Positions 1,396-36,453 of a stretch of 46,391 nt of DNA are shown here, in pieces. Numbering within the stretch: position 1 is the first letter of the stretch; each line of letters begins with the position of its first letter. The DNA comes from Bacteroidales bacterium. GTDB lineage: Bacteria; Bacteroidota; Bacteroidia; Bacteroidales; UBA932. The notes under the pieces were generated by a model that was given only the letters and a program-made list of their open reading frames with translations, was not told where the DNA came from and searched no databases. The translations under genes were made by a program, and so were the position numbers. The DNA is taken from contig JAFYRK010000080.1 in the NCBI GenBank assembly GCA_017559545.1, positions 1 through 46,391 of the forward strand, read 5' to 3'.

Positions 1396-2706
1396 TTATT
1401 TAACTTCGCCTTTGTAGTAAACGTCGATTGAACATGGTTTTGACAGTGCTCCCTGGCTTGTGAGCACGAATTCAATCTCATATACATCATCGTTGTGGTT
1501 GATGTAGATCCAATCTGTATCGGCAGGATGTGGCTTCTCATCATTCTCATATGGCCATACCTGCATGATGTCGTATAGGAACTCCCAGCCAGTCAATTGG
1601 TTGAAATTCTTCTTTCCTGTATTGATGATTGATGCAGGAATAGTGAGGATAGGCATGTGGGTATAGTTTGCCGATGGGAACGAGTATCCATCGCTAGGAG
1701 AGAAACCGATCTTGAGTTTGTCGCCGCTCTCTTCTACCAAGAGTTCCACGATATTATTCCTGGTTTCAACTTTGGTGTCGTAGCTTACGTATTCATATAC
1801 GAATCTGTTGACCTTTACAGTTTTGCTCTCATATGCTCCAGAGTATTCGGCGCAAAGCTGGCTGCCGTCCTTTATCAGTGATATGTTTACTATAACTTCG
1901 TTGTTGTTTACTGTTGTCCTGATTGTGCCTGCAGCACCTTTGAGGGCGTATTTGCGACCCTTTGTATATAGCTTGAGTTCCTGTGGGTAATCAGAGGCTG
2001 TGATATGGTATTCCTTGGTATATGCGGAGTTTTCATCAACACTGATGTTTGGGAACTCTATTCTGATTCCTTCGCTGCCGTTTTCCTCAAAGAGTGCGAT
2101 GGTAGAGTCTCCTCCGTCCTCACGGGTGGTGAAAACTGCTTTCTTGATTGCTGTGTGCTTTCTGTCATAGCCCCAGTCATTGTTGTATGGCTGTTCTTTT
2201 TCAACGACAAATGTACCTTTATATTCGCCTGAGAGTAGACCTGATGGCTTATTGTCTGCCTTAGTGTAAAGCTTTTCAGCCAGGAAGTTCAAAGTAAGGT
2301 TGTCGTTTGCGATCTGAACTTCAATATATGCTGTTCCTACGTTGCCATAGGCGAACTTCTGCTCGCAGAAGCAGATGTATGAGTCTTTTGACTGCGGAGT
2401 GTTGAATCTGTCTCTGTTGCCCAGATATGACTTGTGGGTATTGAGTACGACATAGTCTCCTCCAGCCTTGATCTCCTCTGATGTTGTCAGTCCGCTGACA
2501 GGGGAGAGCCAGAACTCAAGTGTGTTGTCGCCTTTGTCATATTGTACTGCCGAATTTATGACAAACGAATATCCGTCATAAATGAAGAAGTTTGTATTTA
2601 TATCTTCAGGTGTAGCTGGACCATTGTTCGGCTTCTCGCAGCTGACAGTAAGCATTGTTCCCAATATGGCTACGGCTGCAGCCCTGGCAATAGAAATCAG
2701 TTTCAT
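1396..2706 (-). CDS. Putative lipoprotein of unknown function
   Basis: The 436-residue product opens with a hydrophobic signal sequence and a lipobox ending at Cys23 (TVSC, then EKPNN), so it should be a lipid-anchored envelope protein. The rest is soluble, rich in beta-prone segments, Asn, Asp and aromatic residues, like many Bacteroidales surface lipoproteins. I recognise no catalytic motif. A -7 element sits 40 bp upstream of the start. The methyltransferase gene follows after 2 bp, but nothing ties the two functions together. Confidence 0.75.
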   Translation of the reverse strand: MKLISIARAAAVAILGTMLTVSCEKPNNGPATPEDINTNFFIYDGYSFVINSAVQYDKGDNTLEFWLSPVSGLTTSEEIKAGGDYVVLNTHKSYLGNRDRFNTPQSKDSYICFCEQKFAYGNVGTAYIEVQIANDNLTLNFLAEKLYTKADNKPSGLLSGEYKGTFVVEKEQPYNNDWGYDRKHTAIKKAVFTTREDGGDSTIALFEENGSEGIRIEFPNISVDENSAYTKEYHITASDYPQELKLYTKGRKYALKGAAGTIRTTVNNNEVIVNISLIKDGSQLCAEYSGAYESKTVKVNRFVYEYVSYDTKVETRNNIVELLVEESGDKLKIGFSPSDGYSFPSANYTHMPILTIPASIINTGKKNFNQLTGWEFLYDIMQVWPYENDEKPHPADTDWIYINHNDDVYEIEFVLTSQGALSKPCSIDVYYKGEVK

Positions 2707-2745
2707 AAAAGTTGTTTTTATAAATATTCAAACCTTTCGACTTTG

Positions 2746-2753
2746 CAAATATA
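2746..2753 (-). promoter_or_regulatory. -7 promoter element for the lipoprotein-methyltransferase pair
   Basis: The minus strand reads TATATTTG, an exact match to the Bacteroidetes -7 consensus TAnnTTTG, 40 bp upstream of the start at 2706. No clear TTG -33 element is seen at the usual spacing. Confidence 0.6.
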
Positions 2754-2828
2754 TATAATTTAAAGTAATTATCAGCATGTGGTCTGAACCTTGCTAAATC
2801 CAAAGCTGTGAATTTAAATTTAAAAGCG

Positions 2829-3911
2829 ATGAAACGAATTATAACATTGGCCTCTGCGGCATTACTTCTGATGGCGGTTTCGACCGAAGCAGACGCCTGC
2901 ACAGGCATTTCCCTCAAGGCACAAGACGGCAGTAGGGTAGTGGCAAGAACCGTGGAGTGGGCTGCTACTCCGATGCAGTGTGGTTACGCTGTGGTACCTC
3001 GTGGCCATGTACAGCAGTCATATACACCTACAGGCGAGAATGGATTGAAGTATAAGGCTGTGTATGGCTATGTTGGCATATACACTGAATATGAACCATT
3101 CGTGGTTGAAGGAGTCAATGAAGCAGGACTCTCTGCGGGACTTTTCTTCTTTCCAGGCTATGGTGATTACAAGGCATATGATTCTAAGCGAAACGATGTG
3201 ACACTCTGTGATATGCAGTTTGTTTCATGGGTGCTTTCGCAGTTCTCAACGATCGATCAGATGAAGGCTTCATTGGCCGGCCTTGACCTTGTTACCTTGG
3301 ATCATAGAATAGGTGCTGTTCATTGGAGAATCACTGAACCTAATGGCAGAATGGTTGTACTTGAAGTTGTCGGTGGAGTTCCACAGTTCTATGAGAACAA
3401 GCTCGGTGTCATAACAAATGCACCTGGCTTCCAGTGGCACATGACCAACCTCAATAACTACATCAATCTCCAGCCGGGATCGGCTCCTGACAATACAATA
3501 GCTCCAGGCATCACTCTACAGCCTCTTGGTCATGGCAGCGGCATGCTCGGTCTCCCTGGCGACTTTACATCGCCGTCGAGATTTGTCCGCGCGACATTCT
3601 TCCAGACCACCGCACCAGTCTGGCCAGATGGTTTCTCGACAGTACAGCAGGCATTCCATATACTGAACAACTTCGATATCCCAATCGGAAGCCAGCACTT
3701 GCAGAAAGACATTCCTAAGGGTCTTCCAAGCGCAACACAGTTCACTGCTGCAACTGACCTGAAGGCGATGAAGCTCTATTATCGTACAGCATGGAACAGC
3801 AATATCCGTTGCATTGACCTTATGGATATTGATTTCAAGAAGGTCAAGTTCCAGAGCCATCCTCTCGACGATGTTCAGCAGCAGCCTGTTACGATGGTAA
3901 GAATCAAATAA
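2829..3911 (+). CDS. Choloylglycine hydrolase family protein (bile-salt hydrolase-like)
   Basis: Ntn-hydrolase that would cleave a linear amide such as a glycine- or taurine-conjugated bile salt. A 23-residue signal peptide ends exactly before Cys24, which becomes the N-terminal nucleophile (ADA then CTGISL). Numbering that Cys as Cys2, Arg18 is present and the usual Asp21 is Glu (ARTVEW). The Asn-containing block TNLNNY and the Arg-containing block LPGDFTSPSRFVRA of the family are intact. The start at 2829 (MKRIIT) is preferred over 2808 because it gives a clean signal peptide. Export implies action in the periplasm or on the surface. Penicillin V amidase or acyl-homoserine-lactone acylase activity is the main alternative. 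It is alone on this strand and ends at a strong terminator. Confidence 0.9.
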   Translation: MKRIITLASAALLLMAVSTEADACTGISLKAQDGSRVVARTVEWAATPMQCGYAVVPRGHVQQSYTPTGENGLKYKAVYGYVGIYTEYEPFVVEGVNEAGLSAGLFFFPGYGDYKAYDSKRNDVTLCDMQFVSWVLSQFSTIDQMKASLAGLDLVTLDHRIGAVHWRITEPNGRMVVLEVVGGVPQFYENKLGVITNAPGFQWHMTNLNNYINLQPGSAPDNTIAPGITLQPLGHGSGMLGLPGDFTSPSRFVRATFFQTTAPVWPDGFSTVQQAFHILNNFDIPIGSQHLQKDIPKGLPSATQFTAATDLKAMKLYYRTAWNSNIRCIDLMDIDFKKVKFQSHPLDDVQQQPVTMVRIK

Positions 3912-27666: not shown

Positions 27667-28221
27667 TTAGATCCTGCTTGTAAACTTCTGTATGTTCTCT
27701 GCAGTTGGCGGGATGCCTCTCATTTCGCACTTCTCGACTGCGGTCTTTGCCTCAGGAGCTACTACCCAGAAGATGACATATGCCCAGAAGCCACCTCCAC
27801 AGAAGAGGAGAGCTATCAGGAAGATGATTCTGATGAACACTACATCAATTCCAAGGAAAAGGGCAAGTCCGGAGCATACTCCTCCGATCTTCTTGTCGTC
27901 CGGGTCACGGAACAGTTTCTTAGTTGCACTCATATATTCATTATTTACTTTGTTATTATTATCTGCCTTATAGCCTTCAGGATAGCCGATTTGGGCTATG
28001 ATCTCTTCGACCATCCTGAGGTTTACAACCTCGCGTCCTCCAAGCTTCTGCTTCAGGAGATCTGAAATCCTTACTTCCAGCTCGTCCATCACATCGTTGC
28101 TGGTATTGGAACCTTCAAGAGCTTTTCTGAAATCCTCAAGGTATTCACTCATAACGTAATACGCATCCTCATCGATGATGAAGCTGCATCCGCCGATCGC
28201 TACGTTCAATGTCTTTTTCAT
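27667..28221 (-). CDS. PspC domain membrane protein (short form)
   Basis: The 184-residue protein has a cytosolic N-terminal region (1-105) and a C-terminal PspC module (KIGGVCSGLALFLGIDVVFIRIIF) with two hydrophobic segments, then a short conserved tail (EKCEMRGIPP) that also occurs in the long form. It is the first gene of the operon. Envelope-stress function is inferred from the family. Confidence 0.88.
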   Translation of the reverse strand: MKKTLNVAIGGCSFIIDEDAYYVMSEYLEDFRKALEGSNTSNDVMDELEVRISDLLKQKLGGREVVNLRMVEEIIAQIGYPEGYKADNNNKVNNEYMSATKKLFRDPDDKKIGGVCSGLALFLGIDVVFIRIIFLIALLFCGGGFWAYVIFWVVAPEAKTAVEKCEMRGIPPTAENIQKFTSRI

Positions 28222-28378: not shown

Positions 28379-28510
28379 GACTAACGACACTTGGTTTTAT
28401 AACTATTTGCTTTGTAGAGCGTTATGAATTGAGGCGTCGTTAGTCCATGCTTTAAAGCACCGACTAACGACATGGGTGATTTTAATGAATTGATTACTAA
28501 TGTGTTATAA
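28379..28510 (-). repeat. 132-nt intergenic element, copy A
   Basis: This stretch aligns without gaps, over the same length, to 35610-35741. The 21 bases at 28436-28456 are identical to 35667-35687. It carries GACTAACGAC at 28379 and 28462 and its inverse GTCGTTAGTC at 28436; 28436-28471 folds as a hairpin with the palindrome TGCTTTAAAGCA at its tip. It lies 45 bp past the LOG gene stop. The 334-bp gap 28222-28555 contains this element, the PadR operator and a promoter, and no credible gene. Strand is assigned by the flanking genes. Confidence 0.8.
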
Positions 28511-28555
28511 GTCAGTGTGCCGTCGGTCCACAAACGAGCATCTGGAGGGAGGGTT

Positions 28556-29674
28556 TTACTGACTGTTGCGGAAGTCAGAGATTGTGGAGACAATCCGGTC
28601 TATGTTATCTGTTATGGAGAGAAGGAGGTTCTTGTACCTGCCTTTCTCCACAAGATGCTGCATGAGTCTGTATACAGGCATTTCCTCCATCCAGAAGTGC
28701 TCTCCAAGGAAGACCATCGGGCTGGCATAGCCGAAACTGAGGTAGTGGTTCTGGACAGCATCCTGAAAGATTTCCTGCATGGTTCCTGCGCTTCCAGGAG
28801 AGTATATTACTCCTCCTTTGGAGATTGTCAGGATCAGGTCTTCGCGGGTGCTGTTGTCAAAGAACTTGGCGATGTGTGTGGCGAATGGAGTTGCAGGCTC
28901 GTGTCCATAAAGCCAGGTTGGTACGCCCAGACTGACATATTCTGGATGCGGGAATGCAAGCATGACGCGGAAGGCAGTCTCCAGCCAAAGTTCATCCTTG
29001 AACGAAGGTGCTGCACTTAGGATCTCAGTGGCTTCATGCACAGCGCTGTCGTCCCGTCCCGCCAGCCAGGCGCCAAGATGGGTCGCCTCCATGGCTCCCG
29101 GCCCTCCGCCGCTGACCATCACGCAGCCGCTCTCGGTCAGCTTCTTGCTCACCAGTGCCACCTTGGTATACTCGGGATCTGTACGAAGCAATCCGTGTCC
29201 TCCCATGATTCCGACGACACTCCTTTCGTCAAATGATCTGAGGAAATCGTCCATCCCGTCGTTCATGGCATGGTCATGGAGAATGCGCGCAAGCGATTCC
29301 TTGATGTCACCTGTCTGTTTACCCTTTTCAAGATAATGCTCATAGACCTTATAATCATATGTGTCCTTATAGGACTCAGGTTCGCCAAGGCGATATCCCA
29401 TGTACAGGTCCTTATATGAATACAGCTTTCCCTTGAACATGTCAAACGGTACTCCGCGCATAGACGGGAAGACGCTGCAGGAGCATCCTATCCTGTCGCA
29501 AAGCTTCTCAACTCCGACTCCTCCAAGAAACAGGCAGTCCTCAAAAGTACACTTCAATGCGCTCTCCAGGAAAGGCTCAAAGTCAATGTCTTGGAATGCA
29601 TAATGTCTAAGTGTTCCGCCAGCTTCCAAAATGACGCGCAGCGCCTCGATATTTTCAATTTCCTTATATCTCAT
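28556..29674 (-). CDS. LOG family nucleotide-binding protein
   Basis: The 372-residue protein has a C-terminal Rossmann-like LOG domain with the phosphate-binding GGGPGAMEA and the second signature SPGSAGTMQE (canonical PGGxGTxxE, with Ser and Ala replacing the two glycines). LOG proteins cleave the base from nucleoside 5'-monophosphates. The N-terminal 140 residues are an extra domain like that of large bacterial members such as PpnN. Cytosolic. The exact substrate is unknown. Confidence 0.82.
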   Translation of the reverse strand: MRYKEIENIEALRVILEAGGTLRHYAFQDIDFEPFLESALKCTFEDCLFLGGVGVEKLCDRIGCSCSVFPSMRGVPFDMFKGKLYSYKDLYMGYRLGEPESYKDTYDYKVYEHYLEKGKQTGDIKESLARILHDHAMNDGMDDFLRSFDERSVVGIMGGHGLLRTDPEYTKVALVSKKLTESGCVMVSGGGPGAMEATHLGAWLAGRDDSAVHEATEILSAAPSFKDELWLETAFRVMLAFPHPEYVSLGVPTWLYGHEPATPFATHIAKFFDNSTREDLILTISKGGVIYSPGSAGTMQEIFQDAVQNHYLSFGYASPMVFLGEHFWMEEMPVYRLMQHLVEKGRYKNLLLSITDNIDRIVSTISDFRNSQ

Positions 29675-35175: not shown

Positions 35176-35568
35176 TTATGCTGTATGCTCCGTGTCGAAT
35201 TCTTTCTTCACTCTGTATAGGATTATGTAGTCTATGATGGCGGAAGCGCCGATGAAGACCAGGGCCAGGCATGTCAGTTTCAAATTTCCGCTGAATGTCA
35301 GATATGCACTGTATAGCGTGAATACGGACCATATTATTATATATGTTATGATCATGCCTTTTTCAATCCTCGACAGGTACATAGAGCTTTCCTGTTTCTT
35401 GATACGGTTTACATAGGAAACAGGTATAGCGACAACGAATATTGCCAGAAGAGCAATCATTAACCAGTCAGGCTTTCCCTGTACCATGACACGTGGCGCC
35501 AGAGCGGCAATCAGACAACACATTCCGGCTGCCAGTAATATAGGACGTAGGATCTTAAGTGATTTCAT
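35176..35568 (-). CDS. Small membrane protein of unknown function
   Basis: The 130-residue protein has four hydrophobic segments (about 8-25, 36-53, 72-90, 98-116) with a basic loop in the middle (NRIKKQES) and a charged C-terminus. I recognise no family. It lies downstream of the repeat element copy B (gap 41 bp), behind the ICMT-like and menG genes on the same strand. Confidence 0.7.
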   Translation of the reverse strand: MKSLKILRPILLAAGMCCLIAALAPRVMVQGKPDWLMIALLAIFVVAIPVSYVNRIKKQESSMYLSRIEKGMIITYIIIWSVFTLYSAYLTFSGNLKLTCLALVFIGASAIIDYIILYRVKKEFDTEHTA

Positions 35569-35609: not shown

Positions 35610-35741
35610 GATTAACGACAGTGACTTTTGTAAGTGTTTGGTTATAAGTGTTGTATGGTTTTAGGTGTCGTTAGTCCATGCTTTAAAAGGATAACTAAAG
35701 ATGGCGTGGTTTGTAATTGTTTGATAATCAATGATGTATAA
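35610..35741 (-). repeat. 132-nt intergenic element, copy B
   Basis: It aligns ungapped with 28379-28510. GATTAACGAC starts at 35610 and GTCGTTAGTC at 35667, the same 57-bp spacing as in copy A; the third motif has decayed (near 35690). It lies 43 bp past the stop of the ICMT-like gene, almost the same distance as copy A from its upstream gene. An ORF that crosses copy A is broken by a stop here, so the shared sequence is probably not coding. Confidence 0.8.
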
Positions 35742-35784
35742 ATTGGGGTGTATTTAGTTCGATACGAACAATGTTCTTTGGAAT

Positions 35785-36453
35785 TTACCAGATAAAAGGG
35801 ATTATTCGGTATTTGACCTTCTTCATGTATTCCTGATATCCTTCCAGGCCTTCTGCTAGGACTTTCTCTTCGTTGTTCATTCGTTTCTGGATGATAGGAA
35901 GGTATACTAATGTGATGATGAAGGACGGGATCGACCCCAATATCAGCGGCATGGAAAGGAACAGGAGGAGGGTAGCGGAGTACATAGGGTGACGGACGAT
36001 TCCGTAGAGTCCGGTGTCAACGACCTTCTGGTTCTCCTGGACTTCGATTGTGCGTGACAGGTATGCGTTCTCTCTCATTACTTCTGCATACATCACATAG
36101 CCAGCAAGGAAGATTGCTGATGATATCCATGTCAAAGCAGGTGGCATAGGCATCCATCCGTATCTGAAGTTCAGGCCTGCCAGTACGAATGAGGCTATGA
36201 ACATAAGTCCGGAGAGGGCGACGACGCTCTTCTGCTCGTCCTGCTTCTCCTTTGCGTTAAGTCTTTTGCGCAGGAGATCCGGGCTTTTGGCTATCATTAC
36301 CAGTCCGGCGATGAACATCGGTATGAACAATGTACCGAGCAGTACCCAGCCCTGCCAGAAATGCAGTGTGCCTGCCGGAATGAATGTAAGTGCTCCTGTA
36401 AGTAATATGCCTGAGAATAGTTTTACAAGGCCGTCAATGATCAGTTTCTTCAT
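35785..36453 (-). CDS. Isoprenylcysteine carboxylmethyltransferase-family membrane protein
   Basis: The 222-residue protein has five hydrophobic segments and the C-terminal SAM-binding signature of the ICMT/phospholipid methyltransferase family (DTGLYGIVRHPMYSAT then NEEKVL...YQEYMKKVKYRIIP). It would methylate a lipid or a small hydrophobic molecule at the inner membrane. It overlaps menG by 4 bp (ATGA), which hints at a prenyl-lipid substrate, but this is only inference. Confidence 0.88.
   Translation of the reverse strand: MKKLIIDGLVKLFSGILLTGALTFIPAGTLHFWQGWVLLGTLFIPMFIAGLVMIAKSPDLLRKRLNAKEKQDEQKSVVALSGLMFIASFVLAGLNFRYGWMPMPPALTWISSAIFLAGYVMYAEVMRENAYLSRTIEVQENQKVVDTGLYGIVRHPMYSATLLLFLSMPLILGSIPSFIITLVYLPIIQKRMNNEEKVLAEGLEGYQEYMKKVKYRIIPFIW

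Follow-up and report, generated by a model that had tools for sequence, protein, structure and literature searches.

Paired 68-nt palindromes after the ends of genes in a Bacteroidales bacterium, probably members of a REP/BIME-type family associated with RAYT-like genes

The closest described counterparts of the elements reported here are the REP and REPIN (BIME) repeats with their RAYT (TnpA_REP) proteins, as in the REPtrons of E. coli and Stenotrophomonas (PMC8266576, PMC3733652). In the portions of these two papers that concern us, the repeats are short extragenic palindromes that occur in pairs or clusters, have a sequence specific to the species and flank the RAYT gene, and the present elements are like them in these respects. 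They differ in the size of the unit (68 nt here versus 20–40 there), in having outer arms that vary around a core that is kept, in forming direct doublets with a linker of 15–16 nt, and in RAYT-like ORFs of about 290–345 aa whose C-terminal part is long. Inspection of units by eye showed no shared foot of the GTAG/CGTC type, and therefore we do not claim canonical REP membership for them. The second counterpart is subclass 2.6 of TnpA_Y1 from Bacteroidetes, in which, in the relevant passages of PMC6006769, ‘atypical secondary structures’ flank the genes and have copies elsewhere in the genome. By this description the likeness is one of HUH/Y1 genes of Bacteroidetes, non-GTAG flanking hairpins and further genomic copies of these, and in those passages the kind of system is already known. 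The table value of 179 given there for the subclass, which we take as a mean length in aa, compares with about 300 aa here, and the motif YIH[QN]NP, as printed there and without the subclass profile, compares with YLFNNP, YIGNNP, YILRNP and similar motifs here. What sets the elements apart from the described REPs is the size of the module, the missing GTAG foot, the species-specific arms and the fixed core resembling an IHF site, and in the surveyed part of the open-access literature we found no description of the doublet design, the fixed core and the species-specific arms.

We propose that two elements, copies A and B, in a 46,391-nt stretch of DNA from a Bacteroidales bacterium (the window; contig C98 of a 2.1-Mb draft assembly that is 69% complete) are members of a REP/BIME-type family of extragenic palindromes spread by HUH/Y1 ‘RAYT’ transposases. 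We hold this to be likely, with our confidence slightly lowered because the presence of RAYT genes does not track that of the units. The family unit is a 68-nt palindrome in which an outer stem of 10–12 bp, set by the species, surrounds a fixed AT-rich palindromic core, and such units often stand as direct doublets with a 15–16-nt linker and, in some species, in longer tandem arrays with a period of about 84.

A preliminary description of the window had presented the two copies as colinear, ungapped 132-nt look-alikes, and this is borne out, with 88 of 132 positions identical versus 58 of 132 for the next best 132-nt stretch of the window; the identical 21-nt core, the 57-nt spacing and both motifs also lie where they had been placed. 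The pair is real but the 132-nt frame was too short, as the second module reaches position 28529 in copy A and 35760 in copy B (Table 1). Over the full 151 nt the copies agree at 97 positions, and BLASTN with copy A as query returns copy B from the same genome at E 7.2e-8. One copy consists of two direct 68-nt palindromic modules and a 15-nt palindromic linker (68 + 15 + 68), and each module is approximately a palindrome from end to end, with position i pairing with 68-i in 74.9% of cells across eight units. Module 1 of copy A forms a mirrored hairpin over its full length (-28.8 kcal/mol), as do, when folded singly, most of the 11 units excised from this genome, the full-length hairpin being absent or partial in C130_1 and in both units of C145. 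The hairpin attributed to copy A in the preliminary description is the central one at 28436-28471 that the linker gives, and copy A as a whole has a folding z of about -5 on both strands; the folding of copy B is far weaker (z of -1.1 and -2.6). The arm sequence GTCGTTAGTC, with at most one mismatch, has seven matches in the window versus 1.87 expected, five of them inside A and B, and none of 100 shuffles reaches seven. Of the remark that an ORF crosses copy A and is interrupted in copy B, what stands concerns a single minus-strand frame, which is open throughout copy A except for the stop that forms the last codon there, and has an internal stop in copy B; the other frames of copy A each contain at least two stops. 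The minus-strand stop codons, earlier put at 43-45 bp from the starts of the copies, lie 26 nt from copy A and 24 nt from copy B.

Table 1. Elements and neighbouring genes in the window (window coordinates), outer arms of units in related genomes, and RAYT-like loci with flanking units.
Feature	Genome or locus	Position	Strand	Remarks
Copy A	window	28379-28529		doublet, 151 nt
Copy A module 1	window	28379..28446	+	68 nt; arms GACTAACGAC / GTCGTTAGTC; R1 77.2 bits, R2 70.9 bits
Copy A linker ATGCTTTAAAGCACC	window	28447..28461	.	15-nt palindrome
Copy A module 2	window	28462..28529	+	68 nt; R1 69.3 bits, R2 51.1 bits
Copy B	window	35610-35760		doublet, 151 nt
Copy B module 1	window	35610..35677	+	68 nt; arms GATTAACGAC / GTCGTTAGTC; R1 69.4 bits, R2 52.3 bits
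Copy B linker ATGCTTTAAAAGGAT	window	35678..35692	.	15 nt
Copy B module 2	window	35693..35760	+	68 nt; arms AACTAAAGAT / GTATTTAGTT; R1 72.3 bits, R2 63.9 bits
PspC-domain gene	window	27667..28221	-	downstream of copy A
Gene with weak SLOG/LOG-type Pfam matches (below cut-offs)	window	28556..29674	-	stop codon 26 nt from copy A
130-aa ORF, no Pfam match	window	35176..35568	-	downstream of copy B
PEMT/ICMT-type methyltransferase gene	window	35785..36453	-	stop codon 24 nt from copy B
Arms GGTTAACGAC	G153
Arms GGTTAAACAC	G026 and G380
Arms GGACCGCGAACA	G362
Arms GACCTGGAACG	G367
Arms CCCTAGCCAC	G021
Arms CTACTTCCAC	G321
Arms GACCTAGGTC	G120
Arms GGACCTTCCAT	G075 and G078
RAYT-like ORF	L323 (G021)			doublets on both sides
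RAYT-like ORF	L324 (G026)			flanked by units
RAYT-like ORF	L325 (G380)			flanked by units
RAYT-like ORF	L326 (G321)			flanked by units
RAYT-like ORF	L333 (G261)			flanked by units
RAYT-like ORF	L334 (G334)			unit arrays, period 84, on both sides
RAYT-like ORF	L341 (G324)			flanked by units

Beyond the window, BLASTN and pattern searches of the same genome found a doublet on each of the contigs C130, C133 and C145, and C133 also has a single unit. A covariance model built from 10 units of this genome (R1) recovered these sites and two more, on C61 and C53, of which the C61 doublet, with a linker of 15 nt, had contributed nothing to the model and had earlier been only a partial BLASTN match (E 0.24). 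In total R1 finds eight sites in this genome, one of them on a possibly misbinned contig; with that contig, C53, excluded, there are five sites besides A and B (four doublets, one single). Contig C53 may be misbinned because its unit (L038) and the gene upstream read the same as contig C119 of genome G153 and its arms, judged by eye, are of the G153 type; in a 200-nt stretch around the unit 158 positions agree without gaps, and a short tandem repeat there differs by indels. Repetition in the extragenic DNA of one genome, a trait by which REP elements are recognized, is thus found here. The idea that a spacer was simply duplicated by chance, which draws on the small copy number in the window and on nothing else, is refuted by these copies, and with kin species, covariation and a linked gene also against it we give it practically no credence.

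All six classifiable sites of this genome begin no more than 26 nt after a stop codon, the doublet on C133, near a contig end, having been left out. Besides A and B, the distances are 13 nt on C130 and 11 nt for the single unit on C133; the C145 doublet has stop codons 19 and 12 nt away on its two sides, and that on C61 follows the stop of a 499-codon frame at 0 nt. These positions favour a different reading, in which the units are primarily a 3'-end RNA device (a terminator, pause site or exonuclease block) selected at each gene, with their spread as a by-product, and the stable hairpin in copy A points the same way. So does the arrangement of neighbouring genes. A naive ORF caller classified 88 of 122 fetched sites (13 lay inside naive ORFs and 21 at edges) into 42 tandem, 36 convergent and 10 divergent, versus 33, 14 and 18 for element-free spacers, and on these naive ORFs, with some sites shared by two species and hence not fully independent, convergent pairs are in excess (36/88 vs 14/65, p 0.015) and divergent ones differ at p 0.012. 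A further point in favour comes from site A in the relative L082, where the spacer measures 164 nt and has a 13-bp GC-rich hairpin in place of the element, compared with 334 nt including the element in the window; this hairpin scored as terminator-like only on the strand opposite the gene (0.4 such sites in shuffles), and just four T follow it on the gene's strand. Against a 3'-end device, a scan of the spacer found no terminator-like site at copy A, the units of copies A and B are followed by no run of T, their orientation relative to the gene before them is not constant (plus in C130, minus in A and B), and the copy number ranges widely between species, from 2 to 121 matches in the 25 genomes picked as positive, as a mobile repeat would lead one to expect. 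We consider it possible, if rather improbable, that this is what the units primarily are; in addition to being a probable member of a mobile family, copy A may influence where the transcript of the upstream gene ends, at a place where the closest relative has its GC-rich, terminator-like hairpin.

Judged by the gene next to copy A, the named records closest to the window belong to MAGs of uncultured Bacteroidales from the guts of ruminants, and RGIG9439 from yak, in genome G424, comes first with 92% protein identity. Among 400 genomes of the genus, R1 matched 25, own genome included, at E 0.001. The units of the relatives are of similar length and commonly form doublets with linkers of about 15–16 nt, and in G101, G104, G003 and G396 the gap between units is 57–58 nt. 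Their middle part is nearly constant (TTTTRTAAnnnnTTGATTATCAAnnnnTTAYAAAA), and the outer arms, of 10–12 nt, differ by species yet remain complementary. A second covariance model (R2) was run at E 0.001 on 39 chosen genomes, 25 of them picked as positive, and matched 34: all 25 of those picked and, weakly and with one to three matches each, 9 of the other 14. The highest counts, with both strands included, are 121 in G362 and 91 in G367. By arm pattern, 20 fetched stretches of G362 contain 23 clusters, namely 14 perfect doublets, five single units (pairs) and four with a mismatch in one arm, and the mosaics of units in G367 are longer than those in G362. At many of the sites fetched from G362 (L247-L266), the units abut a second, larger intergenic repeat mosaic (CCAGATCCTTCACTTCGCCTGCGGCTCCGTCTATGGTGACA, GAATCTGGAGAAGAAGGGCGGGACAACG and variants).

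When R2 was applied to 393 genomes of the order at E 1e-4, four matched. Two of these, the own genome and G334, belong to the genus, whose further member G254 had no match. The two others were lone, weak matches outside the genus with no doublet beside them by eye, and were taken as chance. Convincing matches among the 393 genomes came from the genus only. BLASTN of copy A against 61 genomes (own genome and 60 relatives) gave matches in the own genome only; since the arms change, a search by sequence does not by itself recover the family. Phage records gave no match, nor did viral contigs searched with a 21-base pattern. A doublet detector run on the surroundings of the neighbouring gene at 80 loci returned 10 doublets versus 2 in shuffles, and none of the seven listed has the core. 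No Rfam family reached its gathering score over the units, the best at copy A being mir-230 at 17.5 bits (cut-off 72.7).

The division into variable arms and a kept middle bears on two further explanations. A MITE, derived by deletion from a DDE-transposase insertion sequence and bounded by terminal inverted repeats, would likewise be short, repeated, palindromic and intergenic; in such an element one would expect the opposite of arms that vary by species around a kept middle, inspection of copies A and B by eye revealed no target duplication, and the gene between units in relatives encodes an HUH/Y1-type protein, so that this origin seems quite unlikely to us. The attC sites of integrons have the core motif GTTRRRY. 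Integron-like attC recombination sites, as imperfect palindromes of 60–150 nt after stop codons, resemble our elements, in which GTTAGTC comes near that motif. There is no cassette array, however, as the 7 kb between the copies has ORFs on both strands, and GTTRRRY is not kept in the arms across species (for example GACCTAGGTC and GGACCTTCCAT), and we rate this explanation as less probable still than a MITE. As regards insertion events, no clean empty site or terminal duplication was found: the spacer of the relative at site A is too diverged for a junction to be placed, and for site B no empty counterpart could be used, with G360 and G001 keeping just one of the flanking genes.

The pairing of the arms was examined in 30 units from 23 genomes, with 500 shuffles and a slid-partner control, and the values have to be read with the caveat that these units came from a model that rewards pairing. 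Mirrored positions pair in 73.5% of cells, versus 63.6% after shuffling and 37–44% with a slid partner; the covariation value is 0.415 versus 0.236 shuffled and at most 0.144 slid; and 151 cells have changed on both sides versus 89.4 in shuffles. None of the 500 shuffles was as high in any of the three measures. Two further measures over the 30 units did not rise above the shuffles, namely the pairs with both sides changed (25 vs 23.0; 86/500 shuffles) and the further pair types (78 vs 74.2; 77/500). Much of the change sits in the outer eight pairs; the second pair, for instance, is A-U in 13 of the 30 units and G-C in 12. Within the own genome alone, the covariation of eight units is barely higher than that of shuffles (0.260 vs 0.245; 149/500). 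Free of the caveat on pairing is the search for a second hairpin, with 9 or more of 10 arm pairs formed, on either side of the first unit at the gap expected of a doublet: with two windows examined per locus, it was present on one side at 14 of 53 loci, versus 5 of 965 control windows.

The candidate partner gene is of a divergent HUH/Y1 type. PF01797 (Y1_Tnp) matched in 24 of 26 genome handles (one genome is counted twice, G424 being G360 by coordinates), mostly in ORFs of about 290–370 aa. A first automatic scan of Y1 loci found no adjoining module, and hairpins emerged when the flanks were read: by eye, the flanks of 19 Y1 ORFs have hairpins, in many of them gene-specific and two-sided. In a RAYT group of 13 the unit core occurs 29 times in the flanks versus 0.2 in shuffled sequence, at 9 of the 13 members, and the core is absent from the flanks of a second RAYT-like group of five. 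This second group (L225, L226, L229, L240 and L330, from G000, G360 and G021) is of the NHxH, YILRNP type, and L225, L229 and L240 have their own repeated hairpins. When a profile was made from the first group, it matched 28 of 31 genomes and found more RAYT-like ORFs, several of them between or beside units that the models had found.

Seven loci with units around a RAYT-like ORF are listed in Table 1, and the arrays of L334 extend over about 950-1505 and 2570-3496, with about 6 and 11 units. Loci L323 to L327 had been chosen by coordinates and L328 to L342 fetched without regard to adjacency; three of the latter 15 have a unit within 150 nt, as compared with a background of about 0.16% per locus, which comes from 80 control loci mostly outside the genus and whose true value is somewhat higher. 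At L327 a weak core match with other arms was not counted. The arms beside the RAYT-like gene recur in dispersed copies in five genomes, at 3/3 other fetched loci in G321, 2/2 in G026, 3/4 in G380, 3/4 in G334 and 2/2 in G324, and in G021 (C23) and G261 the remaining fetched copies did not show them. An HUH/Y1 gene flanked by the same repeat, as in REP systems, is therefore found in relatives; it was not found in the own, incomplete genome, where arms GACTAACGAC are at none of nine RAYT-like loci (69% complete assembly). The presence of the gene does not track that of the units, with such ORFs in three of five genomes without a unit match and with units and no ORF in G304. Nor is there support for a single clade of module-flanked RAYTs, with five changes on the tree and 24 of 500 shuffles as low.

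The encoded proteins have the features that a REP-associated transposase calls for, an HxH motif and a catalytic Tyr: H58, H60, Y118 and N122 are invariant in 19 RAYT-like proteins, and L323-L325 have NHVH and YALRNG / YVLRNG. NCBIfam REP_Tyr_transpos matches each of the seven proteins compared with it (E 1.5e-5 to 4.6e-11), always below its 80-bit cut-off, and Pfam Y1_Tnp is weak in most, with only L334 and L222 of eight above cut-off and no match for L326. Among 17 matches of a PDB profile search (E <=1), three are named TRANSPOSASE (E 0.012-0.015), and the remaining 14, nearly as good, are 14-3-3 chains.

The preliminary description had offered a structured RNA, a 3' UTR module or a small non-autonomous mobile element, and had stated that no described family fits. 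A mobile element 3' of genes agrees with the dispersed copies, the high copy number in G362 and G367, the cis-linked transposase-like gene of relatives and the starts near stop codons. A dedicated structured RNA is not needed, since the gene upstream may point either way relative to the unit and no Rfam cut-off was reached. The statement on families was too strong, REP/RAYT being the right kind and the pertinent passages of PMC6006769 containing Bacteroidetes RAYTs with atypical structures. Of the checks it had suggested, further copies turned up in the own and in related genomes, covariation across species and proximity to stop codons at all six classifiable own-genome sites, and terminal duplications did not; a lack of further copies and of covariation, which it had named as signs of a chance duplication, is not what was found.

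As to how a REP/BIME-type family of this kind might spread, we envisage that the RAYT would bind the hairpin in single-stranded DNA, for example on the lagging-strand template, cut it at its foot and copy it to new extragenic sites, and that arms and RAYT would change jointly from species to species. The kept core could be where an IHF/HU-type architectural protein binds. The consensus WATCAANNNNTTR, which we take to be that of IHF, is present in 16 of 30 units versus 0.6% of mononucleotide-shuffled units, a sequence match that makes this a putative site; transposition of the units and IHF binding are both predicted from such patterns. BIME-1 (RIB, also RIP) of E. coli likewise combines paired palindromic arms with a core like the IHF consensus and lies at 3' ends. 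Its arms and core differ in sequence from those of the units here, and the parallel would be worth testing, no more. If it holds, the present family may be the counterpart, in Bacteroidota, of those REP elements that contain an IHF site. More tentatively, the core fixed in the genus might be read by an IHF/HU-type host protein and the arms serve as the species-specific address for one RAYT paralogue, paralogues and arms forming a rapidly changing code within one genus, and the doublet might switch between two hairpins and one long one. In the surveyed part of the literature, work on how RAYTs recognize repeats concerns canonical GTAG REPs, and one genus with several RAYT/arm pairs around a constant core offers a natural data set for the recognition code. 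As a separate observation on the window, positions 47-139, at its very start, match a group II intron domain in Rfam.
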